DNA from: Acidocella sp.
GTDB taxonomy: Bacteria > Pseudomonadota > Alphaproteobacteria > Acetobacterales > Acetobacteraceae
Length of the DNA: 37,306 bases
Direction of reading: 5' to 3'
Assembly: GCF_013044125.1 (NCBI RefSeq)
Contig: NZ_JABEVC010000122.1
Location: 1-37,306 of the forward strand
The notes beneath the pieces are model-generated. The model saw only the letters and a program-made list of their open reading frames with translations, did not search any database and had not been told where the DNA came from. Positions 3,491 through 36,144 of this stretch are shown in pieces. Position 1 is the first letter of the stretch. Every line of letters starts with the position of its first letter. A program made the position numbers and the translations under genes.

Positions 3491-3503
3491 GAAAATTTAT
3501 CAA

Positions 3504-3541: not shown

Positions 3542-3598
3542 CCAAGGTGTTCTGGCATATAATTAAATAGCCGGCTTGTGATTCCGCACAGGCTTTGA

Positions 3599-5890
3599 TC
3601 AGGCTGCCGCGCGCAAGGCGCGTGCCGCGCTGACCAGATTGGTGAGCGCCGGGATCACCTCACTCCACTGGCGGGTTTTCAAGCCGCAATCAGGGTTCAC
3701 CCACAGGCGTCCGGCGGGGATACGCTTTGCCGCTTGTTGCATCAACGCCACGATATGCGCCTCGCTCGGGATATTCGGTGAATGGATGTCGTACACCCCC
3801 GGACCGATCTGGTTTGGATAGTTGAAATCATCGAACACATCGAGCAACTCCATATCTGAACGCGATGTCTCGATGGTGATCACGTCCGCGTCCATTTTAG
3901 CAATGGCGGCGATGATGTCATTGAATTCAGAATAACACATATGGGTATGAATCTGGGTTCCATCCTTCACGCCATTGGCAGTGATGCGAAATGACTCCAC
4001 GGCCCAGTCCAGATAGTTCTGCCACTGGGATTTGCGCAACGGCAGCCCTTCCCGCAGCGCCGCCTCGTCAATCTGGATGATCCCCACACCCGCCTTCTCC
4101 AAATCCTGCACTTCTTCGCGGATCGCAAGCGCGAGTTGATGGCAGGTGAGCGCGCGGGGCTGATCGTCACGCACAAACGACCAGTTGAGAATGGTCACCG
4201 GGCCGGTGAGCATGCCCTTCATCGGCTTGTCCGTGAGCGAAGCGGCGTAGCTGATCCATTCGACAGTCATCGCCTTCGGACGGCTGATGTCGCCGAAGAG
4301 GATCGGCGGTTTCACGCAGCGCGAGCCGTAGGACTGCACCCAACCCGCCTGGCTGAACACATAGCCCTCAAGCTGCTCGCCGAAATATTCCACCATGTCG
4401 TTGCGCTCGGCCTCGCCATGCACCAGCACGTCCAGCCCCAGCGCCTCCTGTTCGCGCACGCTGTGCTCAATCTCTGCCTGCATAGCCAGTGTGTAGGCCG
4501 CCTCATCAATGCTCCCTGCCTTGAACGCGCTGCGCGCCAGGCGGATTTCCTTGGTCTGCGGGAATGAGCCGATGGTGGTGGTGGGATACAGCGGCAGGTT
4601 CAGAAGGGCGGCCTGCTTGGCCGCGCGCACCGCGAACGGGCTCTGGCGGCGCCCAAGCTCCGGGGTGATCGCGGCCACAGCCGCCTTAACCGCCGGGTTG
4701 TTCACCCGCGTTGAGGCATGGCGCGCGGCAATGGCGGCACGGTTGGCGGCAAGCGCAGGCGCCACCGCGTCGCGGCCCTGGGTCAGCGCCGCCGCCAGTA
4801 TGCGAATTTCACCGAGCTTCTGCACGGCAAAGGCCAGCCAGGAGCGGATCTCCGCATCCAGCTTGTGCTCACTCTCCAGGTCGACCGGCACATGCAGCAG
4901 CGAGCACGAGGGCGCCAGCCACAGCCGCGCACCGAGCCTTTTCGCCACGGGCTCCAGCCAGTCCAGCGCGGCCCCCAGATCGGTCTTCCAGATGTTGCGG
5001 CCATTGACCACGCCCAGCGAGATGACGCGCTCAGCCGGGCTTGCCGCGATCAGCGCTTCCACCTCATCGCGGGCATTGATCGCGTCGAGATGCACGCCCT
5101 GCACGGGCAATGCCGCCACCAGCGGGAGGTTGTCGCGCAACGGGCCGAAATAGGTGGCGAGCAGCAGTTTCACGGCGCCGGTGTTGAGGTGCTGATAGGC
5201 GGTGCGGAAAGCGTCCTGCCAAGTTGCATCCAGCTCGGTGACCAGGATGGGCTCGTCGATCTGCACCCATTGCGCGCCTGCCGCGCCAAGGGCAGCCAGC
5301 AGCTGGGCGTAGGCGGGCAGCAGGCGGGGCAGGAGGGAAAGCTTGTCCGCGCCATCCTTGGCCTTGCCGAGCGCCAGATAGGTCAGCGGGCCGATGATCA
5401 CCGGCTTGGCCGCCACCCCCTGGGCCTGGGCCTCGGCCAGCTGCGCCAGCAGGCGCGCGGCATCGAGCGTGAATTGCGTGCCGGCTTCAAATTCTGGCAC
5501 GATGTAATGGTAGTTGGTGTCGAACCATTTGGTCATCTCACCCGCGGCCACGCCGCCGCAGCAGGCGGCATGGTCTCCGGCGCCAGCGGCCGAGCGGCCA
5601 CGCGCCACGCGGAAGTAATTGTCCAGCGCATCGCCATGGAAGCCGCCTACCCGCGCGGGCAGGTTGCCGAGCGTGAAGCTCATGTCCAGAACCTGGTCGT
5701 AGAACGCAAAATCTCCAACCGGCGTCAAATCCAGCCCGGCCTGATTACGCCAATGGCGCGCCCGCAGCTCAGCCCCGGCGCGCTGCAGCTCGGCTTGCGA
5801 AGATTGCCCCTTCCAGTAGGATTCGAGCGCGAATTTCAGCTCACGCTTGGCGCCGATGCGCGGGAAACCGAGGTTATGAGTTGTGGCCAT
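3599..5890 (-). CDS. metE: Cobalamin-independent methionine synthase MetE
   Basis: MetE (5-methyltetrahydropteroyltriglutamate-homocysteine methyltransferase) makes methionine by direct methyl transfer from methyl-folate to homocysteine, without vitamin B12, in the cytosol. The 763-residue product has the normal double-barrel length. The zinc ligands are visible as His650 and Cys652 (THMCYSEF), Glu674 (ITIETSRS) and Cys735 ([10 protein letters not shown]), each nine residues beyond the E. coli positions. The N-terminal half shows [16 protein letters not shown] for folate binding. The start has AAGGTG eight bases upstream. It is divergent from metR, with a MetR box between them, so it is expected to be activated by MetR when homocysteine builds up. 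A shadow frame runs opposite most of the gene and is not real. Confidence 0.98.
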
Positions 5891-5987
5891 GGGCGTTCAC
5901 CTTAAAAAAATGAGGACATATGAAGCAATTGCCCGGACCATACGGATTTGATGCCATGAATAAAAATGATATGAATTCATAAATCCA

Positions 5988-6000
5988 TGAATTTCATTCA
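5988..6000. promoter_or_regulatory. MetR-binding box between metE and metR
   Basis: TGAATTTCATTCA fits the published MetR consensus TGAA-N5-TTCA exactly. A second, overlapping-type palindrome TGAATTCA lies at 5972-5979. The site is 17 bases before the metR start and about 100 bases from metE, suiting activation of metE and autorepression of metR. Confidence 0.82.
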
Positions 6001-6016
6001 CGTTTGGAGTTGAGCC

Positions 6017-6976
6017 GTGGCAATGTTGGAACGTATTCATCTGGCGATCATCCGCGAGGTCGAGGACCGAGGCTCGCTAACGGCGGCGGCCCGCCAGCTG
6101 CATCTGACCCAGTCGGCCTTGAGCCATGCCATCGCCAAGCTCGAAGACCAGATCGGCGTGAAGATATGGCGGCGCGAGGGGCGCAGCCTGCAGCCGACCC
6201 AGGCGGGTGCGTTTCTGCTTGGCATGGCCAACCGCCTGTTGCCGCAATTTTCGCACGCCGAGGAACGGCTGCAGCAATTCGCCAAAGGTGAACGGGGCAC
6301 GCTGCGCATCGGCATGGAGTGTCATCCCTGCTACCAATGGCTGCTCAAAATCATCGCACCCTATCTGGATAGCTGGCCCAGAGTGGAGGTGGATGTCCGG
6401 CAGAAATTCCAGTTTGGCGGCATCGGCGCGCTGTTCGGCTATGAGATCGACCTGCTGGTGACTCCCGATCCGCTCTATAAACCGGGCTTGCGCTTCACCC
6501 CGGTGTTTGATTACGAGCAGGTTCTCGTGGTCGGGCCGGACCATCCGCTGCGCGGCGCCGATTTCGTATTGCCGCACCAGCTTGCCGAGGAAACGCTGAT
6601 TACCTATCCGGTCGCGACTGACCGGCTGGATATCTACACCCAGTTTCTCACACCCGCCGGCATCACCCCCCGGCAGCATAAACCGATCGAGACCACCGAC
6701 ATCATGCTCTTGATGGTAGGACATGGCCGCGGCGTGGCCGCTCTGCCGCGCTGGCTGGTGGAGGAATATGCCGGGAAATTCGATGTAAGCCCGGTCCGCC
6801 TGGGCCGCGATGGCGTAACCAAGCAGATTTTCCTGGGCCTGCGCGAGCCCGATGCGGAGATTGACTATGTGCGCGCCTTCATCGGCCTGGCATCCGCCTA
6901 TGGCCAGCCGGCCGCCGCCGCCCTGCACGCCGCCCCCAGCGGCGGTCCAACCCGCGTGCGCCCCGGTAAGGACTGA
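6017..6976 (+). CDS. metR: LysR-family methionine regulator MetR
   Basis: MetR is a LysR-type activator of metE that uses homocysteine as co-inducer. The 319-residue product has the N-terminal winged helix-turn-helix (SLTAAARQLHLTQSALSHAI, about residues 19-38) and a LysR substrate-binding domain. Within it the segment MECHPCYQWLLKIIAPYL is characteristic of MetR. A GTG start is preferred over the ATG two codons later because GGAG at 6006-6009 is seven bases from the GTG but thirteen from the ATG. It is divergent from metE across a MetR box. The C-terminal 20 residues are Ala/Pro-rich and probably disordered. Confidence 0.93.
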   Translation: MAMLERIHLAIIREVEDRGSLTAAARQLHLTQSALSHAIAKLEDQIGVKIWRREGRSLQPTQAGAFLLGMANRLLPQFSHAEERLQQFAKGERGTLRIGMECHPCYQWLLKIIAPYLDSWPRVEVDVRQKFQFGGIGALFGYEIDLLVTPDPLYKPGLRFTPVFDYEQVLVVGPDHPLRGADFVLPHQLAEETLITYPVATDRLDIYTQFLTPAGITPRQHKPIETTDIMLLMVGHGRGVAALPRWLVEEYAGKFDVSPVRLGRDGVTKQIFLGLREPDAEIDYVRAFIGLASAYGQPAAAALHAAPSGGPTRVRPGKD

Positions 6977-7041
6977 CTTGCGAATTGCGCTCCGGCTCCC
7001 CACCATTGCAGCACATTATCATCGGATCGGAGTCACGCAGC

Positions 7042-7200
7042 ATGAAGATTGGTTTTCTGGGCCTGGGGCAGATGGGCCATGGCATGGCCGCGAACCTCAT
7101 CAGGGCCGGGCATGAGGTAACTCTCTATAACCGCACGCCGGGCAAGGCCGCGGGGTTGGATGCGGCGCGCGCCGCCCGCCAACCCGCGCCCTCTGTGTCT
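7042..7200 (+). pseudogene. Truncated 3-hydroxyisobutyrate dehydrogenase-like gene (N-terminal stub)
   Basis: The frame starts MKIGFLGLGQMGHGMAANL and continues AGHEVTLYNRTPGKA. This is the NAD(P)-binding Rossmann start of the beta-hydroxyacid dehydrogenase family (3-hydroxyisobutyrate/tartronate semialdehyde reductase), complete with the GLGxMGxGMAxNL glycine motif. A ribosome site (CGGAG) lies nine bases upstream. Similarity stops after about 50 residues, where the sequence meets the 3' end of the convergent MFS gene. The reading frame continues to 7338 only as antisense of that gene. A full protein would be about 290 residues, so the catalytic domain is lost. It is a deletion remnant and probably non-functional. 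Confidence 0.7.
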
Positions 7201-8371
7201 ATAATTCAGAGCCTTTGGCGGTCACAAAATAGGCCAAAGCCAGCAATGGCAGTGCCGCCCCCACGGCGCAAAGGCCACCCCAGCCACCATGGATCAACAG
7301 TGAACTTGTCATCGCGCTGGCGGCTGCCCCGCCGGTGAAAAAAATCGCCATGAACACCCCGTTCAGGCGCGAGCGCATGTTGGCATGGAGCATGTAAATC
7401 ATTCGCTGCCCGATGACGAGGTTGCATTGGACGCCTGCATCAAGCGCCACGCCCGCAAGTGCGAGCAGCACCACGGAATGGATGGCCGCGCCAAGCCAGG
7501 CCAACCCGAACGCTGCCGTGATGCTGAGCAGCGCCCCCACGGTGCCGGCATTGGAATGTCCCTTGTCCGCCAACCTGCCAGCGACAGGGGCTGCGAGCGC
7601 GCCAGCCGCCCCCACCAGCGCAAATACGGCAATACCGCGCTGGGTGTAACCAAAATGCTGCGAAAGATAGAGCGGAACGCCCGTCCAGAACAGTGAGAAC
7701 CCCCCGAACGCGGCGGCCTGATAAGCAGCCCGCTGGCGAAGCGCGGGAAACTGCAGCGGCAGGCTGAGCAGCGAGAGCAGCAGCGTGCCGTAATGGTGCC
7801 CGCCAACAGGCTGGCGCTGCGGCAAGGTAAAGCGCAGCAGCACGGTCATCACCGCCATCAATGCCGCGGAGAGGAAAAACACCACCCGCCAGGAAGATAG
7901 ATCCGCGATCATCGAGGCGGCCGGGCGGCTGAGCAAAATGCCGAGGAGCAGCCCGCTCATCACCGTACCCACCACCCTGCCGCGCCGTGCCTCGGCGGTG
8001 AGATGCGCGGCAAGCGGGATCAGCATTTGCACGGCCACGGAGGTTAGCCCCGTCAACGCGGCGGCCACCAGCAGCATCGCGCCGTTGGCCGCCAGCCCGG
8101 TCAGCAGCAGGGCCGGAACCGAGGCCGCGACGGTCAGCACCATCAATTTGCGGTTCTCGACAAGGTCGCCCAATGGCACCAGAAACAGCAATCCGGCCGC
8201 ATAGCCAAGCTGTGTCAGGCTCACAATCAGGCTCGCGGCATGCGCGCTCAGCCCGACAGCCGGGCCGATCACCCCAACCAGCGGCTGCGCATAATAAATG
8301 TTGGCGACGATTATGCCACAGGATACGGCAAGTAGCCCCACCATGGCGCGAGGAGGTGTCTGGCTGGGCAT
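7199..8371 (-). CDS. Major facilitator superfamily exporter
   Basis: The product is a 390-residue inner-membrane protein with about twelve hydrophobic segments and no signal peptide. It belongs to the MFS DHA1 type. The first helix contains SCGIIVANIYYAQPL, common in YnfM/NepI-like efflux proteins, and the loop between helices two and three reads GDLVENRKLM, the usual MFS motif A region (GxLxDrxgrr). The substrate cannot be told from sequence; drug or small metabolite/sugar efflux is typical of this group. No clear Shine-Dalgarno precedes the ATG. It stands alone, convergent with the truncated dehydrogenase, whose missing part it appears to have replaced or been fused to by a deletion. Confidence 0.9.
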   Translation of the reverse strand: MPSQTPPRAMVGLLAVSCGIIVANIYYAQPLVGVIGPAVGLSAHAASLIVSLTQLGYAAGLLFLVPLGDLVENRKLMVLTVAASVPALLLTGLAANGAMLLVAAALTGLTSVAVQMLIPLAAHLTAEARRGRVVGTVMSGLLLGILLSRPAASMIADLSSWRVVFFLSAALMAVMTVLLRFTLPQRQPVGGHHYGTLLLSLLSLPLQFPALRQRAAYQAAAFGGFSLFWTGVPLYLSQHFGYTQRGIAVFALVGAAGALAAPVAGRLADKGHSNAGTVGALLSITAAFGLAWLGAAIHSVVLLALAGVALDAGVQCNLVIGQRMIYMLHANMRSRLNGVFMAIFFTGGAAASAMTSSLLIHGGWGGLCAVGAALPLLALAYFVTAKGSEL

Positions 8372-8589
8372 CTGAGCGGATGTAACATACGGGCCAAACT
8401 CTGGCCAGTTCGCGGCGCATAAAAAGCACGAAGTTCAAGCGGCTCCACAGCCGGGAGAGCGGGCGGTTCCACCCCATGCAGCTTTTAGCGGCGTTGATGC
8501 ACAGGCACCGGTATCCGGGAGGCCTCTCTTGGGGCTGAACATGGCCTCAACCCGATCGATTTTTGCTATCCTGGGGCGGGCGTCAGCGT

Positions 8590-8820
8590 TTATTGGCTGA
8601 AGGCATTCCCCACCACATGGGCCGTATGCACAATGGCATCGCCCGTGGCATTGGCCCCATCGCTAAAGCCATGGCCGATATCTTTGGCACCACTGCCAAT
8701 ATGCCCCTGGCCGAGATCATTGCCGGCCGCGTTGAAATCCCCCTGCGCCCGGGCGCCGTTGGCATTGCAGGCGGAGAGGGCCAATGGCAGAGCCAGTATG
8801 CATAGGCGGAGCCGTGTCAT
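8590..8820 (-). CDS. Small glycine-rich lipoprotein (entericidin-like, uncertain)
   Basis: The 76-residue product opens with a lipoprotein signal peptide: a basic start, a hydrophobic core (LCILALPLAL) and a lipobox LSAC giving lipid-modified Cys18. The mature part is short and rich in Gly, Ala, Asp and His, with spaced GxD and GA-G motifs (GNDLGQG, GAKDIGHG, GANATGDAI). This loosely recalls entericidin-type small lipoproteins of the outer membrane. The ATG at 8820 is preferred over one six codons upstream because AAAGGAA precedes it at a normal distance. No neighbour suggests a role. The lipoprotein call is good; the family call is a guess. Confidence 0.6.
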   Translation of the reverse strand: MTRLRLCILALPLALSACNANGARAQGDFNAAGNDLGQGHIGSGAKDIGHGFSDGANATGDAIVHTAHVVGNAFSQ

Positions 8821-9076
8821 ATAAAAAATTCCTTTCATCCTTCATGTTGCCCATCTGGCGGCAAATTTCAACATTCCCGCGCCTGTTTGCCCGCTCGCCG
8901 TTCCACCCGCACAACAAGGCGCCGATGAGCCTGAACGCGATATCGTCATCTTCGGTGAACGCTTCAAACGCGAAGGGTAATCGGCCAAGCACAAAACGGC
9001 TGAAAATCCTCAGTTCTTCATGCGCGCCGGAGGATGTCTTCAAAAGCCGGGAAAGCGCGATTTTATGGGCGCTCAC
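8717..9076 (-). CDS. Doubtful hypothetical ORF upstream of the lipoprotein
   Basis: A GTG-initiated frame of 119 codons fills the otherwise empty stretch 8821-9140. Its first 85 residues (MSAHKIALSRLLKTSSG..., then RLIGALLCGWNGER) have plausible protein composition. The remainder runs out of frame through the start of the lipoprotein gene, overlapping it by about 100 bases. I recognise no family. It could be a decayed gene whose true end is lost, or a chance frame. Apart from this I see nothing in 8821-9140. Confidence 0.22.
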   Translation of the reverse strand: MSAHKIALSRLLKTSSGAHEELRIFSRFVLGRLPFAFEAFTEDDDIAFRLIGALLCGWNGERANRRGNVEICRQMGNMKDERNFLYDTAPPMHTGSAIGPLRLQCQRRPGAGGFQRGRQ

Positions 9077-9140
9077 CTTGGCCGTGCCCTGAACCGGCGG
9101 TGAACCCGCAAGCCAATATATCCCAAAATACCGTGTCTCC

Positions 9141-9986
9141 TCATAAATCCTGCCCGGCCTGGCAAAGCGTCTTAATCGCCAGGCTGGCCGCGGCGATCAT
9201 GGGCGCGGTTGTGGCTTCGAGAATCTTGTTCCGGTCAAACAATGCCGGATCGCAGGCCAGGACATTCCGCAGCGCGGCGCCGAAGGCCATACGCAATTCG
9301 GTTCCGATGTTCATTTTACAGATATGCGTCTGGCCGGCCAGGAGCTGGCGCGTTGGCGTGTCGATGCCTGATCCTCCGTGCAGCACGAGGGGAAGGCCGG
9401 GTGCTGCGGACTGAATGGCCTTGAGACGCCCGAAATCAATGGCGGCGCGCGGCGATGTCATGAGGTGGCGGTTTCCCACCGCGACGGCCAGCGCATCCGC
9501 ACCGCTCTCGCGGGCAAAGCGGGCAACCTCGCCGGGGTCGGTCCCTAGGGATTGCGCGCCCCCCTGATAGCCGACAAAGCCCAGTTCGGCTTCAACCGAG
9601 AGCCCATGCCCATGTGCCCACTGCACGATTTCTGCGGTTCGCTCGATGTTTTCCTGCAAGGGCAGGGTGGAACCATCGAACATCACCGAAGTGAAGCCGC
9701 TATCATACGCCGCCTGGCAGACGCGCAGGCTTTCGCCATGGTCGAGATGCGCCACCACTGGCACGCTCGCCCCCTCGGCCAAAGCCCGGAACATTGCGCC
9801 GAGGACGGGCAGGGGCGTGTGGGCGCGGCACCCTGGGCCCGCTTGCAGGATAACCGGGCGGCGGAGCGCCTCGGCGGCGCGGACATAGGCCAGCGCATCC
9901 TCCCACCCCAGAACCACCATCCCCGCCACGGCGGTGCCGTCGGTCAGGCAGGGCGTCAGCACATCGCGCAAATTTGCCAGTGTCAT
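9141..9986 (-). CDS. iolJ: Class II aldolase of inositol catabolism (IolJ-type)
   Basis: The 281-residue product is a zinc-dependent class II aldolase of the fructose-bisphosphate/tagatose/IolJ group. Visible metal-site motifs are VVAHLDHGES (His and Asp), VEAELGFVG (Glu) and LVLHGGSGID (His). GNRHL occupies the region of the remaining ligand. In an iol operon the expected reaction is cleavage of 2-deoxy-5-keto-gluconate-6-phosphate to dihydroxyacetone phosphate and malonate semialdehyde. Its ATG overlaps the iolB stop (ATGA), so it is translationally coupled. The family call is sure. The substrate is inferred from its place as fourth gene of iolDCB-aldolase; sequence alone cannot exclude fructose bisphosphate. 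Confidence 0.85.
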   Translation of the reverse strand: MTLANLRDVLTPCLTDGTAVAGMVVLGWEDALAYVRAAEALRRPVILQAGPGCRAHTPLPVLGAMFRALAEGASVPVVAHLDHGESLRVCQAAYDSGFTSVMFDGSTLPLQENIERTAEIVQWAHGHGLSVEAELGFVGYQGGAQSLGTDPGEVARFARESGADALAVAVGNRHLMTSPRAAIDFGRLKAIQSAAPGLPLVLHGGSGIDTPTRQLLAGQTHICKMNIGTELRMAFGAALRNVLACDPALFDRNKILEATTAPMIAAASLAIKTLCQAGQDL

Positions 9987-10825
9987 GCAAATTTGGCGAT
10001 CATGTTCTTGATGCCGGGGATCGTCTCGATCTGACCGGCATGGCTTGGCTGGAAGAACTGCACCAGCGGCCGTTGCGACAAGCCGCCGAGAATGGTGAAA
10101 TAATACATCTCGTAGCCCGGCAGCGCGCAGCAGGGATGGTACCCCTTATCCAGCAAAATGGTCGAGCCATCGACGACATGATAAGCATCGCCTGGCTTTC
10201 CGTCCTCACGCTGCAACATCTGCAGGCCCGTGCCGTGCGGCGGGTTGAAGCGAAAATTATAAGCCTCGTCGTGGCGGGTTTCGAGCGGCAGGCGGTCGGT
10301 ATCGTGCTTGTGGCTCGGGAAACCTGACCACCCGCCCGCACCAACCGTATAGAGTTCCGACACGAGAAGGCGCCCGACCCGGCCGCGGTACTTCTGCCCA
10401 AGGATATGCTTGATCTTGCGATGGGTCTTGGTGTCGTCCGAGCCGTATTGCACCGGGTCGATGTCCCCCGCGCGGACGGCAAACGGCGGCAGAACCTCAG
10501 CAAACCTCGCGCCGGACACGAACACCTCGGCCGGGCCGTGCGTGCAGGTAATCCGCGTGCTCTGTCCAGAGCCGATATAAACCCCCTCGGGCTCGCCGTC
10601 CCACACGTTCAGGCGGCGCTGGCCGATGCCGGCAAAGGTTTCGCCCCCGCTCGTCACCTCGACAGTTCCGGTCGCCGGAACAACGCAGGTCTCGTAGCCG
10701 GGCACGGCCGAGGTGAAGCTCTCCCCCGCCGCGAGTTTCACGATGTTGAAATACACCAGCGGCACCAGCGGATGATCCACGCCGACGATAGGCTGGTTCT
10801 GGTTATCGTAGGGAGCGATGTGCAT
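9983..10825 (-). CDS. iolB: 5-deoxy-glucuronate isomerase IolB
   Basis: IolB isomerises 5-deoxy-glucuronate to 2-deoxy-5-keto-gluconate, a middle step of myo-inositol breakdown in the cytosol. The 280-residue protein has the normal length and the two-cupin layout of the family. The metal-binding signature GFPSHKHD and a nearby conserved Glu (LETRHDEAYNFRF) are present, as is the C-terminal GYEMYYFTILGG typical of IolB. It lies 12 bases after iolC, and its stop overlaps the aldolase start, so the four genes are one transcript. Confidence 0.95.
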   Translation of the reverse strand: MHIAPYDNQNQPIVGVDHPLVPLVYFNIVKLAAGESFTSAVPGYETCVVPATGTVEVTSGGETFAGIGQRRLNVWDGEPEGVYIGSGQSTRITCTHGPAEVFVSGARFAEVLPPFAVRAGDIDPVQYGSDDTKTHRKIKHILGQKYRGRVGRLLVSELYTVGAGGWSGFPSHKHDTDRLPLETRHDEAYNFRFNPPHGTGLQMLQREDGKPGDAYHVVDGSTILLDKGYHPCCALPGYEMYYFTILGGLSQRPLVQFFQPSHAGQIETIPGIKNMIAKFA

Positions 10826-10837
10826 GGCCGGTCCAGT

Positions 10838-11803
10838 TCATGTCTGTTGGAAAGAGGCGATGAAATGCGCGAGGGTGGCGCTGTCAGGCGATGCGGGGGC
10901 GCATCCGGTCCCCGAGACGATCAGCGCCGCGGTTGCCGCCCCGCGCCGGACGGCGGCCTCAAGCCCATGCCCCTGCGCCAGACCAGCCAGCAGCCCGCCC
11001 ATGAAGCCATCACCGGCACCCGTGGGCTTCAGCGCCGCCACTGGGAAGATCGGGGTTGCGAAGTGCGCATCGGCGGTAAACGTGGTCGAGCCTTCGGCGC
11101 CGCGCTTATAAACGGCGAGGCGCGCGCCTTTTGCCACCAGCCCCCGGGCGAAATCTTCCCCGGCTGCGTGGCTACCGGCCAAAAGCCCGAATTCCAGGTC
11201 GTTGCCAACCACGATATCGCAAGCCTGCGTGGCCTCGCGGCAGACCCGGGTGGCTTCGTCCGCCGTGGCCCATGAATACGCACGGTAGTCGATATCGAGC
11301 ACCACCAGCGCCCCGGCCGCACGCGCGCGGGCCATGGCCAGTGTCGTGGCGCCGCGCGAGGGCGCCGCCGCCAGCGCCGTACCCGTGACCACAAGGGCCC
11401 CGGCGTCCGAAAAATCAATGGCGCTGACATCGGCTTCGCTCAACGCGAAATCGGCCGCGCCGTTGCGGTAAAGTACGGTTTGGCAATCTGTTGCCACGGT
11501 TTCCGTCAGGGCCAGCGAGGTGCGTCTCTCGCCGCCCACCTGGCGCACATGCCGCGTGTCGACGCCGTAACGCCTTAACGCGGCCAGGCAGAAACGCCCG
11601 GCCGGATCGTCGGAGACGCAAGTGGCCAGCGCCACCCCCGCGCCCTGGCGGGCCAGCGCAACGGCGATGTTTCCCGCCGAACCGCCGATGGCGGTGGTGA
11701 ACCTCTCTGCCGTTTCGATCTTGGCGCCCGGCGGATCGGCGCACAGATCCAAGCCGGCGCGCCCCAGGACCACGAAGCGGTTGCAGGTGAGGCGCTGCAT
11801 CAT
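10838..11803 (-). CDS. iolC: 5-dehydro-2-deoxygluconokinase IolC
   Basis: IolC phosphorylates 2-deoxy-5-keto-gluconate at C6 using ATP, making the substrate of the operon's aldolase. The 321-residue protein is a PfkB/ribokinase fold with the N-terminal GGSAGNIAVALARQG motif and the C-terminal ATP-binding/catalytic PTGAGDGFMGGLL, with the catalytic Asp in GAGD. The start is one of two adjacent ATGs; the first (11803) overlaps the iolD stop as ATGA, indicating translational coupling. The frame stays open further upstream, but that part runs through the end of iolD. Confidence 0.93.
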   Translation of the reverse strand: MMQRLTCNRFVVLGRAGLDLCADPPGAKIETAERFTTAIGGSAGNIAVALARQGAGVALATCVSDDPAGRFCLAALRRYGVDTRHVRQVGGERRTSLALTETVATDCQTVLYRNGAADFALSEADVSAIDFSDAGALVVTGTALAAAPSRGATTLAMARARAAGALVVLDIDYRAYSWATADEATRVCREATQACDIVVGNDLEFGLLAGSHAAGEDFARGLVAKGARLAVYKRGAEGSTTFTADAHFATPIFPVAALKPTGAGDGFMGGLLAGLAQGHGLEAAVRRGAATAALIVSGTGCAPASPDSATLAHFIASFQQT

Positions 11804-28564: not shown

Positions 28565-29584
28565 CTAGCGCCGCGAAAAATCGACGATCCCGGCAAACCC
28601 GGTCTCGGTGCCAAAGGCGAGGTGCGAGCCAGAGGGATTCCACGCAAGTGCGGTAATGGCGCCGCGTCCCGGCCCGCAAACAGGCAGGATGTGCTCCTGC
28701 GCAATATCTGCGATCAGCAGCAGGCCGGTATTGAACCCGGCGGCCAGCACCTCGGTCTCCGGGTGGCAGGCGATGCGCTTGGCGATGCCGTCGCCCATGC
28801 CAAGCTCCAGCGGGGCCTTACCCATCGGCCCGCCGCCGAAGAAGGGCCACAGCACGATGGTATCGGCCCCCGCGGTGGCCAGCCAGCGTCCCGAGTGCGT
28901 AAAGCCAAACGATTCGCACTTGGCCGGGTAGCCCGCCATGCGCATGTGCTTGCCTTCCGGCAGGGTCCATCCGTGCAGGGCGTTTTCCTGCATGGAGGTC
29001 ACCAGCGCCTCGCCCTGCGGATGAATGGCGACTCCGGTATGGCTGCCCTTCCACTCCAGTTTGCGCGGCGTCTCCGAGGTGGAGGCGGTGAACCACAGCG
29101 ATGCGCCATTATAATGTGACGCGGCGACCCGCTTGCCCTTGCTGTCGAAGGCAATGCCGGTGACGGTGCTGGGGTGGGGCAGGGCGCGCAGCGCCTCGCC
29201 CTTGCCGTTGAACAGATGCAGAGTCTTTCCGGCGGCGGCGGCGAGCAGCGGGGTTTTTCCGGCGTAGCTCGCCACATGCTCCACCCATTTGGAGCCGTAG
29301 CGGGCAATTTCATCAATCTCGCCGTCCAGCCCCACGGCGAGCAACCGGCCGTCATCACCGCCGGTGATAAATCCCCCCGTCACCGGGTGCCGCGCCAGCG
29401 AGAGCACGGCGCCATTATGCGCCGGGATGCTGGTCCAGGTTTCAGCCGTGGCCATGCGCAGGCTGCCGTCGCCCATGGCGAAGGCGCAGCTGCGGCCGGT
29501 GGCATCAAAACAGGCGGCAATGGCATGGGCGCCGAGTTCAACGGTGTTGCCGCGGGAATTCAAAAGCTGGTCGAGGTCTGACAT
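28565..29584 (-). CDS. WD40-repeat beta-propeller protein
   Basis: The 339-residue protein is made of about seven beta-propeller blades with GH...WD-like signatures (HNGAVLSLARHPVTGGFITGG, HPSTVTGIAFDSKGKRVA, HTGVAIHPQGEALV, HSGRWLATAGADTIVLW, AITALAWNPSGSHLAFG). No signal peptide or catalytic motif is seen, so it is a cytosolic scaffold or interaction protein of unknown partner. The start at MSDLDQLL was chosen because it removes a basic, low-complexity upstream extension; the ribosome site is weak. Its 5' end faces the Cyc2-like gene with about 200 bases between them, and it ends at a hairpin terminator. Confidence 0.85.
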   Translation of the reverse strand: MSDLDQLLNSRGNTVELGAHAIAACFDATGRSCAFAMGDGSLRMATAETWTSIPAHNGAVLSLARHPVTGGFITGGDDGRLLAVGLDGEIDEIARYGSKWVEHVASYAGKTPLLAAAAGKTLHLFNGKGEALRALPHPSTVTGIAFDSKGKRVAASHYNGASLWFTASTSETPRKLEWKGSHTGVAIHPQGEALVTSMQENALHGWTLPEGKHMRMAGYPAKCESFGFTHSGRWLATAGADTIVLWPFFGGGPMGKAPLELGMGDGIAKRIACHPETEVLAAGFNTGLLLIADIAQEHILPVCGPGRGAITALAWNPSGSHLAFGTETGFAGIVDFSRR

Positions 29585-29717: not shown

Positions 29718-29731
29718 TTGAGATAGATCAA
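29718..29731. promoter_or_regulatory. FNR/FixK-like box upstream of the porin-cytochrome gene
   Basis: TTGAGATAGATCAA matches TTGAT-N4-ATCAA with one mismatch in the left half. It lies 56 bases before the downstream ATG, a workable distance for activation by an oxygen- or redox-responsive Crp/Fnr-family protein. No such regulator gene is in the window. Confidence 0.55.
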
Positions 29732-29787
29732 GGTTGCCGATCGTTCATACTGGCAGATCACCAGCCATCATTCAGCAGGAGAGCGCG

Positions 29788-31146
29788 ATGAAGCGGAGTA
29801 GATTGAATTGGGCGAGTGCGGTGGGCGCATTGGCTGGCATAGCGGCGATAACGGCGATGCCGCGGGAGGCCAGGGCGATTCCCGCCTTCGCGGCGCAGAC
29901 CGGTATGCCTTGTTCGGCCTGCCACATTGGTTTTCCACAACTCACCCCCTTTGGCCGTGCCTTCAAGATGGACGGCTATGTGCAGGGCGGCACCTTCCCG
30001 GACATTAAAAATTTCGCGGCCATGATGCAGGCTGGCTTTACCCAGCTGCACGATAAGGTGCCGGGCGGTCTGGCTCCTGATTTCAAGAGCAACAATGCCT
30101 GGTCGATCCAGCAAACCAGCCTGTTCTACGGCGGTGCGCTTGATGGCAAGATCGGCCTCGGTGGTTTCATTCAAGGAACCTACGATGGTATCGGCCATCA
30201 ATTCCACTGGGATAATACGGACATTCGCCTGGCGCAGATGACCAACATCGGCAACAGGCGCCTGGTGTACGGCTTCACCTTCAACAACGCGCCGGGTCTC
30301 ACGGATTTGTGGAACACGCTGCCGGCCTGGGGTTATCCCTTCATCCCGGCCGCGCTGGGTGTTGGCCAGACCGCCGGGCTACAGACCGCATCACTGGCGC
30401 AGGCCGTGGCTGGCGTGGGCGGCTACGGCGCGCTCAACGTCACACCATCAGATCTGCTGTACGGTGAGTTCGATCTGTACAAGGCCGTACCGAACCACAC
30501 CGCCTATATGCTGGGCGTTGGGCCTGAAGCCGCGATCTCCGGGCCAATCCCCTACTGGCGCTTTGCCTTGCAGCACAGCTCTTGGAAGCAATCAATCGAG
30601 ATCGGCACCTCTGGCCTGGTCGATCATCCTTACGCCTCCGGTTACACCCATGGGCCGACGGATACGCTGACCGATGTGGGCGTGGATGCGCAATACCAGT
30701 ACATCACCGTGAAGCAGGCGTTCTCCGTGCAGGCGGCCTATGCGCATGAGTTCCAGCATTGGTCTGCAAGTTATCCGCTCGGGATCACAGCCAACCCGAA
30801 TGATTCGCTGGACAGCATATCCATGAATGCCTCCTATCTCTGGCACCAGATGTTCGGCGTGACGGAAGCTTACGACAGCATCACCGGCAATGCCGATACC
30901 GGGCTCTATAACACCGGCACCAGCAACGCCAATGGCAAACCCAATACCCAGAGCTACACCACCGAGCTGGACTACTATCCGTTCAACACCGATGGCCCCA
31001 AGTTCTTCCCCTGGGTGAACGCCAAGTTCTTCATCGAAGACACCTTCTACACCCAGTTCAACGGGTTGGCGCATAACTACGACGGCAACGGCCGCTCCGC
31101 AGAAGCCAACGACGTGTTGTTCACGGGTATCTGGCTGGTGTTCTAA
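29788..31146 (+). CDS. Cyc2-like outer-membrane monoheme cytochrome-porin
   Basis: The 452-residue product has a signal peptide ending in ARA (residue 30). A short N-terminal segment follows, IPAFAAQTGMPCSACHIG, with one heme-c motif Cys42-Ser-Ala-Cys45-His46, and then PQLTPFGRAFKMDGY (residues 50-64). The remaining ~390 residues alternate like beta strands, with no further CxxCH, and end in Phe (FTGIWLVF), as outer-membrane barrels do. This is the layout and N-terminal signature of Cyc2, the fused cytochrome-porin of iron oxidisers. The ATG has AGGAG six bases upstream. It is monocistronic, with an FNR-like box upstream and a strong terminator downstream. Heme and barrel are visible; Fe(II) oxidation is inference, and other redox or porin roles remain open. 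Confidence 0.85.
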   Translation: MKRSRLNWASAVGALAGIAAITAMPREARAIPAFAAQTGMPCSACHIGFPQLTPFGRAFKMDGYVQGGTFPDIKNFAAMMQAGFTQLHDKVPGGLAPDFKSNNAWSIQQTSLFYGGALDGKIGLGGFIQGTYDGIGHQFHWDNTDIRLAQMTNIGNRRLVYGFTFNNAPGLTDLWNTLPAWGYPFIPAALGVGQTAGLQTASLAQAVAGVGGYGALNVTPSDLLYGEFDLYKAVPNHTAYMLGVGPEAAISGPIPYWRFALQHSSWKQSIEIGTSGLVDHPYASGYTHGPTDTLTDVGVDAQYQYITVKQAFSVQAAYAHEFQHWSASYPLGITANPNDSLDSISMNASYLWHQMFGVTEAYDSITGNADTGLYNTGTSNANGKPNTQSYTTELDYYPFNTDGPKFFPWVNAKFFIEDTFYTQFNGLAHNYDGNGRSAEANDVLFTGIWLVF

Positions 31147-31170
31147 TCACAGGGTAAAACCTGAAGTTAC

Positions 31171-31209
31171 AAAAACCGGCTGGGGGGCTCCTCCCAGCCG
31201 GTTTTTTTT
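31171..31209 (+). terminator. Strong intrinsic terminator after the porin-cytochrome gene
   Basis: ACCGGCTGGG (31175-31184) pairs perfectly with CCCAGCCGGT (31193-31202) and the right arm runs into eight T residues (31202-31209). The flanking A-run (31171-31175) makes it work in both directions. Confidence 0.92.
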
Positions 31210-31367
31210 CATCAGACTATAATTGTCTTGAACTTGCAGTTCCGCCATGCAAAGATTGCGCATGGTTTTGGTAACCGCTCCCGTTGGGCTTAGCTTCAAG
31301 GAAGAACTTCTCCTTCTTTGCGCGCGCATAGGCTTCAGCCCTCCTCACGCTTAAGGTTTTTTCTTGC

Positions 31368-31418: not shown

Positions 31419-32798
31419 ATGCTGAACAAAATGGGCGATGCCGCAAACTGGCAGAGCATTGATAATGCGTATCATTTACATCCTTTTACCGACCACAAGG
31501 CCCTGCATGAAGGCCGCGTGCGTGTCATCACCGAAGCTGATGGCGTATTTCTGAAAGACTCTGACGGCAACCGCATTCTGGACGGCATGGCTGGCCTGTG
31601 GTGCGTCAACGCGGGTTACAGCCGGCCGGAGCTGGTGCAGGCTGCCGCCGCGCAGATGACCAAACTGCCTTACTACAACACGTTCTTTAAAACCACGAAC
31701 CCGCCGGCCGCCGCCCTCGCGCAGCGTTTGGCCAAGCTCGCCCCTGAGGGCATCAACCATGCCTTCTTCGCCTGCTCCGGCTCCGAGGCGGTGGATACTG
31801 CCCTGCGCACCGCGCGCGTTTACTGGCAGACCCTTGGCAAGCCGGAAAAGAAATTCGTCATCGGCCGTGAATATGGCTACCACGGTTCCACCACCCTCGG
31901 CGCTTCCGCCGGCGGTATGGTGGACATGCACCGCCAGGCGGGTGACATGCCAAACTTCACGCAGGTTCTGCCGCCGTACTGGTACGGTTACGGCGGCCAG
32001 ATGAGCCCGGCCGAATTCGGGCTTTATGCCGCCAAACAGGTGGAAGATAAAATCAAGGAGCTCGGCGCTGATAACGTCGCCGCCTTCATCGGCGAGCCGT
32101 TGCAAGGCTCCGGCGGCGTCATCATCCCGCCGGAAACCTACTGGCCCGAGATCAACCGCATCTGTAAGGAGCACGATATTCTGCTGATCGCCGATGAAGT
32201 GATCTGCGGTTTCGGCCGCACCGGCAAGATGTTCGGCTCGGATTATTTCGGTATCAAGCCGGATATGATGACGGTCGCCAAAGGCATCACCTCAGGCTAC
32301 ATCCCGCTCTCCGCGGTGCTGCTGCATGACCGCGTGGCCAATGTCCTCATCAACCAGACGGGCGAGTATTATCACGGCTTCACCTATTCGGGGCATCCGG
32401 TTGCTTGCGCTGTGGCGCTGAAAAATCTTGACATCATCGAAGGCGAGGGGCTCGTTGAGCGCGCCGTGACGGTGGGCGAAGTGCTGCGCCAGAAATTCCA
32501 CGAGGTGTTCGATGATCACCCGCTCGTCGGTGAAGTGCGCGGCATCGGGCTGATCGGCGGCATCGAGCTGAGCGCGGATAAGCGCACCCGCAAGTTCTTC
32601 GCCAAAAACGGCCGCGTCGGCCAGATCTGCCGTGATTTCTGTATCAACAACGGGCTGATCATGCGCGCCGTGCGCGATACCATGGTGTTCGCGCCGCCGT
32701 TGATCATCTCATATGATGAAATCGACACGATGGTCGCCCTGGCGAAAAAATCCTTCGACCAGACCTATGAAAAAGTGAAGCATGAGGTGGCATTGTGA
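31419..32798 (+). CDS. spuC: Putrescine/omega-amino acid pyruvate aminotransferase (SpuC-like)
   Basis: The 459-residue class III PLP aminotransferase probably removes the terminal amine of putrescine (or another polyamine), using pyruvate to give 4-aminobutanal and alanine. Visible are the phosphate/cofactor loop GSEAVD (121-126), YGYHGSTTLGASAGG, the PLP-contacting Asp259 in LIADEVICGFGRTG, and the Schiff-base Lys288 in TVAKGITSGYIPLS. AGGGAGA lies upstream of the ATG. Its stop overlaps the next start (GTGA), showing tight coupling with the glutamine-synthetase-like gene. Co-location with aguA and aguB favours putrescine; beta-alanine or other omega-amines are alternatives. Confidence 0.85.
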   Translation: MLNKMGDAANWQSIDNAYHLHPFTDHKALHEGRVRVITEADGVFLKDSDGNRILDGMAGLWCVNAGYSRPELVQAAAAQMTKLPYYNTFFKTTNPPAAALAQRLAKLAPEGINHAFFACSGSEAVDTALRTARVYWQTLGKPEKKFVIGREYGYHGSTTLGASAGGMVDMHRQAGDMPNFTQVLPPYWYGYGGQMSPAEFGLYAAKQVEDKIKELGADNVAAFIGEPLQGSGGVIIPPETYWPEINRICKEHDILLIADEVICGFGRTGKMFGSDYFGIKPDMMTVAKGITSGYIPLSAVLLHDRVANVLINQTGEYYHGFTYSGHPVACAVALKNLDIIEGEGLVERAVTVGEVLRQKFHEVFDDHPLVGEVRGIGLIGGIELSADKRTRKFFAKNGRVGQICRDFCINNGLIMRAVRDTMVFAPPLIISYDEIDTMVALAKKSFDQTYEKVKHEVAL

Positions 32799-34162
32799 GC
32801 GCGCCGGCGATTGCCGGCAACACCGATAAACTGGAGTTGATGGCCCAGGCTGAATATATTGAAGCCTTCATCATCGATGTGAACGGTGTGCCGCGCGGCA
32901 AGTGGCTGCAGCCGGACAAGGCGAAAGCCTTGCTCGGCGTCGGCATCGCCATGCCGCGCTCGGCCTTCCTGCTCGATATCTGGGGCCGTGACGTGGTCGA
33001 GGGCGGCATCGCGCTTGACACCGGCGACCCCGACGGCCTCTGCACCGCCGTCGCGCATTCCATCACCCGCATGGGCTGGGCGGACGGTACGGCCTGCCAA
33101 GCCATGCTGACCATGCGCGAAGCTGACGGCAGCCATTTCTATCTCGATCCGCGCGGCGTTCTGTCGCGCGTGCTGGAGCGCTTCACCGCCGCCGGCCTCA
33201 CCCCCGCGCTGGGGGTGGAACTGGAGTTCTACCTGGTGGATCAAGGCCAGACCGGCGGTTTGAAAATCGCCCCCCGCGGGGCGGATTATTCCGGCTGGCG
33301 CGGCTGGCATATCGATGCGGTGGGCCTGGGTGAAATCCACGACTATCAGCCGATCCTGCGCGAGATGATGTCGAACGCAAAATCGCAGGGCATCACGCTG
33401 GAAACGCTGATCAGCGAGAACGGCCCCGGGCAGTTTGAGGTAACCCTGAAATACTCGACCGACGCGCTGCGCGTTGCCGATTCCGCGACGTTGTTCAAGC
33501 GTACCATCAAACAGGTCGCGCGCAAACACGGGTTGACCGCGACCTTCATGGCCAAGCCCTACGGGCAATGGGCGGGCAGCGGCATGCATGTGCATATGTC
33601 GGTGCTGGACCGTAATGGCAACAACATCTTCGCCGGTACGCCTGAGCGCGCCGCGCCAGTGCTCTACAACGCACTGGGCGGAATCATCAAGGCGCTGCCT
33701 GATACGATGCTAACCCTGGCGCCGCATGCCAACTCCTACCGGCGCTTTGCCCCCGGCGTGCACGCACCCACCTTCGGCGACTGGGGCCACGACAACCGCA
33801 TGGCGGCGATGCGCGTCATCACCGCTGACCCGCACGCCTCGCGCATCGAGCACCGCGTCGCCGGCGCCGATTGTAACCCCTATCTCGCCTTCGCCTCGCT
33901 GCTCGGCTCGGCGCTGAACGGGATCGAGACCAAAGCCGACCCCGGCCCGGAAACCTTCGGCGAGCGGCGCAGCCCCAGCGCGCCCTCATTGCCCATCGCC
34001 TGGTCCGCGGCGCTCGAAAAATTCTCAGACTCCGCACATATCGCCAGCATTTTCGGCGCTGACTTCCAACGTGTCTTCACGGCCTGCAAACGTCAGGAGG
34101 TGAATGAAATGCGGCGGCGGATCTCCGATGTTGAATACGATGCGTATCTGGAGACCGCATGA
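32795..34162 (+). CDS. puuA: Glutamine-synthetase-family gamma-glutamylpolyamine ligase
   Basis: The 455-residue product belongs to the type of glutamine synthetase that joins glutamate to amines (PuuA/SpuB/GlnA3). Landmarks include the Mg-site ALGVELEFYLVD, NGPGQFEVTL, the ATP/metal SGMHVHMSVLD, NSYRRFAPGVHAP and RIEHRVAGADCNPYLAFASLLGSALNGI. Classical GlnA features such as the adenylylation-type C-terminus are not obvious. With putrescine it would make gamma-glutamylputrescine, protecting the amine during breakdown. A GTG start overlaps the aminotransferase stop (GTGA), and its own stop overlaps the aguB ATG (ATGA). Confidence 0.86.
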   Translation: MSAPAIAGNTDKLELMAQAEYIEAFIIDVNGVPRGKWLQPDKAKALLGVGIAMPRSAFLLDIWGRDVVEGGIALDTGDPDGLCTAVAHSITRMGWADGTACQAMLTMREADGSHFYLDPRGVLSRVLERFTAAGLTPALGVELEFYLVDQGQTGGLKIAPRGADYSGWRGWHIDAVGLGEIHDYQPILREMMSNAKSQGITLETLISENGPGQFEVTLKYSTDALRVADSATLFKRTIKQVARKHGLTATFMAKPYGQWAGSGMHVHMSVLDRNGNNIFAGTPERAAPVLYNALGGIIKALPDTMLTLAPHANSYRRFAPGVHAPTFGDWGHDNRMAAMRVITADPHASRIEHRVAGADCNPYLAFASLLGSALNGIETKADPGPETFGERRSPSAPSLPIAWSAALEKFSDSAHIASIFGADFQRVFTACKRQEVNEMRRRISDVEYDAYLETA

Positions 34163-35046
34163 GAAACGTCACAGTCGCGGCCACGCAAATGGCCTGCGGA
34201 GACAACGCTGCTGAAAACATTGCGCGGGCCGAAAAACTGGTCCGCGCGGCGGCGGCGCAGGGCGCGCAAATCATTCTGATCCAGGAATTGTTTGAAACGC
34301 CCTATTTCTGCCAGGACCAGATCCACGCCTGCTTCGGGCTGGCGAAATCCCTGGAGGAAAACGCGGCGGTCGAACATTTCGCGCCCATCGCCAAAGAGCT
34401 TGGCGTCGTGCTGCCGGTCTCGGTGTTCGAGCGCGCGGGCCAGAGCTTTTTCAACACAGTCGTCATCCTTGATGCCGATGGTGCCAATCTCGGCTACTAC
34501 CGCAAATCCCACATCCCCGACGGCCCTGGTTACTCCGAGAAATTCTATTTCTCCCCAGGCGATACCGGTTTCAAGGTGTGGGACACCAAATACGCCCGCA
34601 TCGGCGTTGGCATCTGCTGGGACCAGTGGTTTCCCGAAACCGCGCGCGCCATGGCGCTGATGGGCGCGGAACTGCTTTTCTTCCCCACCGCCATCGGCTC
34701 CGAACCGCAGGACTCCAAGCTGGATTCCAGCGGCCATTGGCAGCGCACCATGCAGGGCCACGCCGCCGCCAACCTCACCCCGCTCGTGGCTTCCAACCGT
34801 GTCGGCACCGAGCAGGGCGCCCGCGGCACGGCGATCACCTTCTACGGCTCCTCGTTCATCGCCGATCACACGGGCGCCAAAATCGCCGAGGCTGACCGTG
34901 TTGCGGAAACCTTCCTCACCGCCACGTTTGACCTTGAATCGTTGGCCCAAACCCGTGCCTCCTGGGGCGTCTTCAGGGACCGCCGCCCCGAACTATACAC
35001 CCCGCTGCTCACGCTTGACGGCAGGCATATCCATAATGCCCGGTAA
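34159..35046 (+). CDS. aguB: N-carbamoylputrescine amidase AguB
   Basis: AguB hydrolyses N-carbamoylputrescine to putrescine, ammonia and CO2. The 295-residue cytosolic enzyme is a nitrilase-superfamily member with the Glu-Lys-Cys triad at Glu43 (LIQELFETPYF), Lys116 (GYYRKSHIPD) and Cys153 (VGICWDQWFPE). The motif GYSEKFYFSPGDTGF and the C-terminal RDRRPELY are typical of the plant/bacterial carbamoylputrescine amidase group. The ATG overlaps the preceding stop, and aguA begins 12 bases after its end. Confidence 0.95.
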   Translation: MRNVTVAATQMACGDNAAENIARAEKLVRAAAAQGAQIILIQELFETPYFCQDQIHACFGLAKSLEENAAVEHFAPIAKELGVVLPVSVFERAGQSFFNTVVILDADGANLGYYRKSHIPDGPGYSEKFYFSPGDTGFKVWDTKYARIGVGICWDQWFPETARAMALMGAELLFFPTAIGSEPQDSKLDSSGHWQRTMQGHAAANLTPLVASNRVGTEQGARGTAITFYGSSFIADHTGAKIAEADRVAETFLTATFDLESLAQTRASWGVFRDRRPELYTPLLTLDGRHIHNAR

Positions 35047-35058
35047 GGAAGCCTAACG

Positions 35059-36144
35059 ATGACCACGCCGCGCGAACTTGGTTTTGCGATGCCGGCGGAA
35101 TGGGCGCCCCATGCGGGGTGCTGGATAATCTGGCCCGAGCGGCCGGATAACTGGCGGCTGGGGGCTAAGCCCGCGCAGCACGCCTTCACGGCGGTGGCCT
35201 CGGCCATCGCCCGCTTCGAGCCGGTGACGATGCTGGTCAGCGCCCGGCAATTCGCGCAGGCCCGCGCAATGCTCCCGCAAGCGGTGCGCGCCGTTGAGCT
35301 TAGCACCAACGATTCCTGGGCGCGCGATGTGGGCGCGTCCTTTCTGCTCAACCCGGCAGGGGATCTCGCCGGGGTGGACTGGCCCTTCAACGCCTGGGGC
35401 GGGCTGCAGGGCGGCTTATATTTTCCGTGGGATCTGGACGATCAGGTGGCCGCCAAAATGCTTGAGCTGGAGCGCGCCCGGCGTTTCCGCGCGCCAAAAA
35501 TCATCGAGGGCGGAGCAATTCACGTCGACGGCGAAGGCAGCGTGCTCGTTACGGAGGCATGTCTGCTCAACGAGAACCGCAATCCGGGGGCCACGCGCCA
35601 GGAAATGGAGCGGGTGCTGCAAGACTATCTCGGCGCCTCGCATGTCATCTGGCTGGGCGAGGGCGTGCCCGGCGATGAGACCGGCGGCCATATTGATAAC
35701 CTGGCCTGCTTCGTGCGTCCCGGCGTGGTGCTGCTCAGCTGGTGCGACGATCCGGCCGACCCGCATTACCAAGTCTCGCGTGCTGCCGAGGCACGTTTGC
35801 AGGGTGCGCGTGATGCAAAGGGCCGCCCGATCGCGGTCGAGCATATCCCGATGCCCACGCCGATGTTCATCTCCGCTGAAGAAGCCGCCGGTGTTGACCA
35901 TGGCGAGAACGGCATGAACCGCGCCGCCGGCGAACGCCTCGCCGCCTCGTATGTGAATTTTTATATTGCAAATGGCGCGATAATTGCACCATCCTTTGGA
36001 GTGGCAACGGATGCCGCGGCCCGGGCCGTGCTGGCCCGGCTGTTTCCAGAACGAGAGATCGTGATGGTTCCGGCGCGTGAAATTCTTCTGGGTGGGGGCA
36101 ATATCCATTGCATCACCCAGCAGCAACCAAGGACTGAAAATTGA
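35059..36144 (+). CDS. aguA: Agmatine deiminase AguA
   Basis: AguA converts agmatine to N-carbamoylputrescine and ammonia. The 361-residue protein belongs to the peptidyl-arginine-deiminase superfamily. Visible are the substrate-binding NDSWARDVG, EGGAIHVDGEG, the catalytic His segment GDETGGHIDN, and the nucleophile Cys351 in GGGNIHCITQQQP at the C-terminus. The start has AAGGA upstream. Placed directly after aguB, the pair completes agmatine to putrescine. Confidence 0.96.
   Translation: MTTPRELGFAMPAEWAPHAGCWIIWPERPDNWRLGAKPAQHAFTAVASAIARFEPVTMLVSARQFAQARAMLPQAVRAVELSTNDSWARDVGASFLLNPAGDLAGVDWPFNAWGGLQGGLYFPWDLDDQVAAKMLELERARRFRAPKIIEGGAIHVDGEGSVLVTEACLLNENRNPGATRQEMERVLQDYLGASHVIWLGEGVPGDETGGHIDNLACFVRPGVVLLSWCDDPADPHYQVSRAAEARLQGARDAKGRPIAVEHIPMPTPMFISAEEAAGVDHGENGMNRAAGERLAASYVNFYIANGAIIAPSFGVATDAAARAVLARLFPEREIVMVPAREILLGGGNIHCITQQQPRTEN

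Follow-up and report, generated by a model that had tools for sequence, protein, structure and literature searches.

An Acidocella genome of 2.68 Mb (G000) was found to carry, as a single copy, a gene for a Cyc2-like cytochrome-porin that is preceded by a predicted FNR/FixK-type site, and it is this FNR-type box ahead of a Cyc2-like gene that is new here. The reading preferred by us, to which a probability of roughly 0.55 is given, is that the product would act as a low-oxygen iron electron valve, i.e., a one-heme outer-membrane pore with Fe(III) as its preferred outlet and possibly reversible. The support counted for it comprises the single CXXCH together with a porin-matching barrel, profile homology, electron carriers encoded nearby in relatives, purifying selection after loss of the partner, the conserved box, the box of cydA, the regulator C162 and the anaerobic growth on Fe(III) stated for A. 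aromatica. The gene is located in the window, by which is meant the whole stretch of 37,306 nucleotides that was analysed (contig 21 of the genome); its features are collected in Table 1.

Table 1. Features of the Cyc2-like gene and its surroundings (positions in the window).
Feature	Position	Strand	Basis or remark
WD40 beta-propeller gene, divergent	28565..29584	-	likely ATG at 29584 by eye; longest ORF starts at 29761
FNR/FixK-type palindrome TTGAGATAGATCAA (predicted)	29718..29731	+	begins 70 nt before the ATG; sole TTGAN6TCAA in the window
Ribosome-binding site AGGAG	29777..29781	+	read in the sequence
Cyc2-like cytochrome-porin gene	29788..31146	+	ATG at 29788, stop ends at 31146, 452 aa; ORF read and homologues
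Signal peptide, residues 1-30, cleavage AxA/IP (putative)	29788..29877	+	by eye only
AIPAFAAQT, Cyc2 signature with Ala for Arg, residues 30-38	29875..29901	+	motif according to PMC8406198
Heme c site CSACH, residues 42-46; PQL at residues 50-52	29911..29925	+	sequence
Predicted outer-membrane beta-barrel, residues 71-452, 16 predicted strands, C-terminal Phe	29998..31143	+	model and structure matches
Hairpin with A-tract/U-tract, probable intrinsic terminator	31171..31206	+	folding, -34.3 kcal/mol (31150-31215), z -5.8
Polyamine genes: class III aminotransferase, glutamine-synthetase-like, N-carbamoylputrescine amidase, agmatine deiminase	31419..36144	+	conserved neighbours, separate unit

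The Gene and Its Product

The open reading frame with one N-terminal CSACH, which a sequence-only reading of the window had singled out, was present as described there, including the quoted sequence LTPFGRAFKMDGY, and a scan of the whole protein revealed this one CXXCH only. No family match was obtained for the 452-residue protein in Pfam or NCBIfam, the PDB sequence searches gave no meaningful relative, and Rfam and ARAGORN returned nothing for the window. The hairpin behind the gene was recognised by folding; a pattern-based terminator scan listed none at 31171-31206.

Predicted Structure

An AlphaFold2 model built from nine sequences was of low confidence (mean pLDDT 53.5, pTM 0.61) and contained 16 strands, the number that had been proposed for checking when the protein was likened to Cyc2. 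Residues 1-79, which include the heme segment that by analogy with Cyc2 would plug the barrel from the periplasmic side, were modelled at pLDDT below 50. Foldseek gave 168 matches at E ≤ 0.001, the best 50 of the 168 being outer-membrane barrels, mostly porins, and OmpF and OprO were also among the porin matches listed by Foldseek and VIA-align. In the VIA-align superposition with 1e54, a Comamonas anion porin of the Omp32 type, 288 residues were aligned over model residues 71-452 (Z 18.0, rmsd 3.6). The porin-like part ends in Phe, as had been read from the sequence. Of the 50 VIA-align rows listed, 49 begin between model residues 66 and 76 and the remaining one begins at residue 48, so that the heme segment precedes the barrel.

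Behind the heme site, Lys-60 (in FK) was invariant in 29 of 29 loci from across the phylum and in 44 of 45 tree rows, the sole exception being a cut Caballeronia row that begins past the heme motif. As a remark only, this residue may be an axial heme ligand.

Relation to Cyc2

Cyc2 was defined by Keffer et al. as a one-heme protein of at least 365 amino acids with a 16-strand barrel and the signature AXPXFAR[QK][TY] (PMC8406198). The protein encoded in the window has 452 residues, its PXL motif (P50-Q51-L52) follows CXXCH after four residues, and AIPAFAAQT fits the signature at all but one position, where Arg is replaced by Ala. Because one defining position fails, the protein was filed as Cyc2-like; apart from that position, the Cyc2 layout proposed from the sequence is borne out by the one heme site, the predicted barrel and profile homology. 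The same replacement was found in all 24 Acidocella copies (those of 23 congeners and the window). At this position 16 other Acetobacteraceae loci had A (6), R (4), Q (2), S (2), G (1) or E (1), and 29 phylum-wide loci had R (26), A (1), M (1) or V (1).

A family profile made of 21 Acidocella proteins and four rows from outside the genus matched FARQTGAACLSCH-type proteins over their N-terminal third (best E 4e-21), and the identity to the FARQTG/YARQTG proteins L009-L011 was 36-37%. With this profile 88 of 398 Pseudomonadota genomes gave homologues, many of the FARQTG type; the count includes the genome of the window. Sixty-five of these 88 genomes, 1.2-3.1 Mb in size and matched over the N-terminal part only, make up one family (f60), presumably iron-oxidising Zetaproteobacteria; 11 proteins of this family were examined and carried forms of A[IV]PAFARQTGAACLSCH.

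Among 200 sampled Acetobacteraceae genomes, homologues were found in 60 (own genome and three congeners counted). Such a wide spread, together with the additional functions allowed for by Keffer et al. (PMC8406198), would suit a porin-cytochrome with a redox partner other than iron (Cu, Cr, V or organic shuttles), or a general redox sink for which iron is incidental; the surroundings of the gene, however, give no positive evidence for another substrate, and this explanation appears improbable.

Acidithiobacillus Cyc2A and Cyc2B, Mariprofundus Cyc2PV-1 and Leptospirillum Cyt572 were compared with the protein by description. Common to them are a signal peptide (here recognised by eye), one N-terminal CXXCH with PXL next to it, a length above 365 residues, a predicted 16-strand barrel and, for the protein of the window, profile homology to FARQTG-type proteins. 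Unlike them, the latter has Ala in the signature, an FNR-type box, an organotrophic host and no adjoining cytochrome, cupredoxin or oxidase genes. The arrangement of the Acidithiobacillus rus operon (cyc2 followed by cyc1, cup, coxBACD and rus) is not that of the window, where polyamine genes lie downstream; a rusticyanin search of the 398 genomes for this operon gave weak matches in 51 genomes and none above the cut-off.

Homologues in Acidocella and on Plasmids

Near-full-length, stop-free homologues were found in 23 of 36 congeners, and fragments in two more (G005 and G012). In G012 (G012:C59; L047, 6926-7345) a 139-residue frame has the N-terminal part fused to the extreme C-terminal part through an internal deletion. 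The closest named loci were those of a proteobacterial MAG (99%) and an Acidocella sp. MAG (99%), followed by Acidocella aquatica (89%), with A. aromatica (68%) lower in the order.

The host is a heterotrophic acidophile, as had been presumed, but the view that such a protein is surprising in such an organism is not supported. A Cyc2-like protein in Acidocella is not new, since the genus is among the organisms named with Cyc2 homologues (PMC10654088), and Cyc2 in Acidocella with cytochrome-type neighbours and a deranged bc1 has been published, Fe(II) oxidation being proposed as a bypass (PMC10715153). Both papers name Acidocella, and their proteins are very probably the same as that of the window. 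Loss of the partner, the R-to-A change in the signature and the FNR-type box are not described in the available portions of these two papers.

The protein encoded by Acidiphilium plasmid pACRY03 was 58% identical and has the same FAAQTG signature. It and its counterpart on pACMV3 differ from the window in being plasmid-borne with a cytochrome gene alongside; furthermore, pACRY03 has no FNR-type box within two mismatches, and the copy on A. multivorum pACMV3 (L065, 7890-9258) is broken into two ORFs. At 10604-10750, pACRY03 (L063/L064) carries a second copy, reduced to a short remnant that contains a stop. The Acidithiobacillus ferrooxidans YQ-N3 plasmid CP084173.1 (L063) and A. cryptum JF-5 pACRY03 (NC_009469.1, L064), compared over bases 1-11600, were identical over 11.6 kb, owing either to a mixed culture or to recent transfer.

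A search of viral_contigs gave one distant relative, a Cyc2-like protein with 34% identity at the end of IMGVR_UViG_3300029955_001365 (L103, 3001-4266), a contig filed as viral in which this is perhaps the host flank of a provirus.

Gene Neighbourhood and Loss of the Partner Cytochrome

The WD40 gene noticed next to the Cyc2-like gene proved right and is conserved in the Acidocella clade without the cytochrome partner, in which the order is usually WD40 (divergent), Cyc2-like gene and polyamine genes; the ORFs chosen for G016 do not show the WD40 gene. When the 30 ORFs of the window were scanned against Pfam, and ten of them also against NCBIfam, no iron-oxidation partner was found, and six of the 29 other ORFs had no Pfam family. 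The sequence-only reading was therefore correct that the surroundings carry no partner genes, but bc1 and COX1 genes are present elsewhere in the genome. At 231-2264 on the minus strand the window encodes a mercuric-reductase-like pyridine-nucleotide disulphide oxidoreductase with an N-terminal heavy-metal-associated domain.

A small cytochrome (PF00034) is encoded directly downstream in 12 Acidocella genomes and in none of the 11 other scorable ones, the window included. G002, in which the contig ends inside the gene, was unscored and is absent from the trees, and G005 and G012 have fragments only. In a 33-row tree the 11 partner-less Acidocella, in one clade with A. aquatica and A. aromatica, were on one side of a branch with support 99/99, and loss of the partner required one change. 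A single loss overall was rejected, as a tree with 14 more loci, from which two long rows (a Delta MAG and Methylocystis) were omitted, needs five changes; in this tree the partner-less Acidocella are still one clade, joined by G635. Outside the clade, G478, G602, G489 and G605 have no heme-bearing neighbour within about 1.5 kb. More generally, lack of the partner is not uncommon: seven of 20 loci were without one, three of the seven being Acidocella. The stand-alone state is real but derived within Acidocella: it holds for the window, as had been stated, but within the genus it is specific to one clade, and some copies outside the genus also have no partner. About half of the congeners keep a partner, and the supposition that its lack is a feature of the system is not supported.

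A homologue was present in nine plasmid records, and in seven of the eight examined, two of which are identical in this region, a c-type cytochrome gene adjoins it; in a Paraburkholderia plasmid the c-type cytochrome is one gene away. In G040 a HiPIP gene adjoins the homologue. In G003 (L037, 3457-7283) cytochrome c maturation genes of the ccmC, ccmE and ccmF types come after the gene pair, and most of this order is shared by G007 and G020.

The cytochrome C116, the most partner-like one of G000 (41%), was considered as a relocated partner and rejected. A small tree with 12 of the 13 partner sequences (that of G020 was left out, the match having run past a stop codon) did speak for it, C116 falling among the partners (95/89) with a long branch, but it belongs to a TonB-type cluster and has closer relatives in genomes that keep an adjacent partner (72% in G017, 64% in G008). 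The cluster was observed at G000:C116 (L081, 2902-6494) and G009:C7 (L084, 4355-7849) and consists of genes for a TonB-dependent-receptor-like protein, a 129-residue c-type cytochrome and a TonB-like protein, all named by eye. Glu-40 was tried as a partner-docking residue lost along with the partner, E40 or its replacement by L/M separating the partner-bearing from the partner-less Acidocella clades; the idea was dropped because residue 40 does not track the partner outside Acidocella.

With the partner gene lost in the clade, the pACMV3 copy split and that of G012 internally deleted, the gene might be taken for a relic, a non-functional leftover of partner loss. However, dN/dS was 0.04-0.22 in eight pairs of the window's Acidocella clade (dS was near or above 1 in several of them), no clade copy has an internal stop, and the heme motif is kept in all 24 Acidocella copies. 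The gene is under purifying selection, and the relic explanation is hardly credible.

Electron Transport Genes of the Genome

At the bc1 loci of G000 and 11 other Acidocella the Rieske motifs CTHLGC/CPCHGS were replaced by forms such as LNTGSPC/SPCDGS, from which the His residues are gone, and the PEW motif of cytochrome b was found in no frame above 300 codons at these 12 loci (the cytochrome b alignment is listed for ten of them). Both the Rieske motifs and PEW are retained in three genomes of this class that served for comparison, in G040 with CHCHGS. The bc1 derangement published for Acidocella is thus repeated in the window's own genome, and since the Rieske His ligands are lost, electron transfer from quinol to cytochrome c via bc1 is hardly possible. 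The single COX1 match of G000 is an open frame of 548 codons, which is the size of an aa3 type, and none of the larger bo3 size was seen. The genome also has one bd oxidase match and cytochrome c1; matches to rusticyanin and HiPIP were not found in G000.

According to a published proposal for acidophilic Acetobacteraceae (PMC10715153), which uses the loss of the Rieske ligands in this way, electrons of Fe(II) would flow inward through the Cyc2-like protein to a periplasmic cytochrome c and on to an aa3-type oxidase, bypassing the dead bc1. This agrees with the aa3 size of the single COX1 and with the oxidation of Fe(II) by a characterised Cyc2 (PMC8406198). Against it stand the failure to match rusticyanin and HiPIP in G000 and the lack of an adjoining dedicated cytochrome, to which the data on the box given below are added, and Fe(II) oxidation as the role of the protein is considered unlikely, though a serious alternative.

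The FNR-Type Box and Candidate Regulators

The palindrome ahead of the gene has one mismatch in ten to TTGATN4ATCAA. It proves nothing alone, because when the entire window was shuffled 100 times, at least one TTGAN6TCAA arose in 28 cases (0.32 expected, one seen). When 300 nt upstream of each of the 24 Acidocella copies were scored for the best match to TTGATN4ATCAA, five had no mismatch, 14 had one and five had two. The match of G016 lies in WD40 coding DNA and was excluded, the box being missing there at the expected place, which leaves 18 of 24 within one mismatch. This level was reached by 1.0% of dinucleotide shuffles. Of 226 other ORFs at these loci 12 reached it, but five of the 12 are the WD40 gene, which shares the box (7 of 221 without them); in all these counts related sequences are not independent, and the starts were set by homology or by rule. 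The box stays with the gene across differing upstream neighbours, and its left half is imperfect in the window clade (TTGAG or TTGCG). Beside it no sigma-70-type promoter was found. On its other side the box is flanked by the divergent WD40 gene, and this gene may share the control in the window clade.

As a positive control, cydA had the box in 12 of 12 genomes (G000 and 11 congeners), perfect in ten; that of G000, TTGATATAGATCAA, is one base away from the box of the Cyc2-like gene. Among 34 further loci, 33 of them outside Acidocella, the box was perfect in ten, had one mismatch in six and more in 18. In a set of ten named or distant homologues one (G040) was within one mismatch and nine were without the box. 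None of 11 scorable FARQTG-type loci (ten of f60 and one of f108) was within one mismatch, six being at two; the ten are presumably from iron-oxidising Zetaproteobacteria. Both this result and the predicted low-oxygen control, which is unlike what an aerobic iron oxidase needs, speak against Fe(II) oxidation by the protein of the window.

The regulator G000:C162 has CxxC-x7-C, a later Cys and an ETVSR helix, i.e., the FNR cysteine pattern, and G000:C167 has the ETVSR helix and is devoid of N-terminal cysteines. A predicted FNR/FixK site and an FNR-type regulator gene are both present in the genome, and the gene appears to be induced at low oxygen. Since G000 gave eight HTH_Crp_2 matches and C167 has the same helix, the regulator that acts on the box may be a different one from the oxygen sensor. 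A literature search found no report of FNR control of cyc2, which does not prove that there is none. A known case of genes for iron electron transfer governed by a member of the FNR family is pioABC of Rhodopseudomonas palustris TIE-1, where FixK controls an operon for Fe(II) oxidation (PMC3050613). Unlike the window gene, it encodes a multiheme cytochrome and a separate, larger barrel (PMC8406198) and serves Fe(II) oxidation in phototrophic growth; because of this example, FNR/FixK control alone does not fix the direction of electron flow.

Proposed Function

As an electron valve for iron, the protein would be a secreted 452-residue outer-membrane porin, the N-terminal segment of which would hold one covalent heme c on the periplasmic side. 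The heme would pass single electrons between dissolved iron entering the pore and periplasmic c-type cytochromes. When oxygen is scarce, an FNR-type sensor would raise expression of the gene, alongside the bd oxidase. The role in Acidocella would most likely be iron respiration at low oxygen, preferably as an outlet to Fe(III) and possibly reversible. In the window clade, where the dedicated neighbour cytochrome has been lost, the pore would discharge into the general cytochrome c pool. Of this account, the gene, its heme site and homology, the selection on it, the loss of the partner, the conservation of the box and the presence of an FNR-type regulator gene are shown by the computations, while the fold, the location in the membrane, the attachment of the heme, the transfer of electrons and its direction and the control by FNR are inferred.

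Outward flow is the first choice because reduction of Fe(III) has been reported for isolates of Acidocella (PMC10715153, PMC8790237, PMC8223813), with A. aromatica, a member of the window's clade, stated to grow on it anaerobically (PMC10715153), and because Cyc2A, Cyc2B and Cyc1B are raised in At. ferrooxidans respiring Fe(III) (PMC7735108). Fe(III) reduction is awkward in one respect, since with a deranged bc1 there is no known route by which electrons of quinol could reach cytochrome c.

On a wider scale, and tentatively, at odds somewhat short of even, a heterotroph branch of the Cyc2-like family might belong to the FNR regulon and work mainly in reverse, as a one-heme Fe(III) reductase, the window clade having dropped the carrier. 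Homologues of cyc2 serve to propose iron oxidation from genomes. What cyc2 does in organisms not known as iron oxidisers has been recognised as an unanswered question (PMC8406198), and the reduction of Fe(III) by extreme acidophiles is poorly understood (PMC8790237). With a low-oxygen box conserved in heterotrophs and not seen in the sampled putative iron oxidisers, the role of these genes becomes testable in culturable strains such as A. aromatica. If the reverse reading is true, iron oxidation could no longer be deduced from the presence of cyc2 in a genome, and the enzyme with which acidophilic Acetobacteraceae reduce Fe(III) would have been found.
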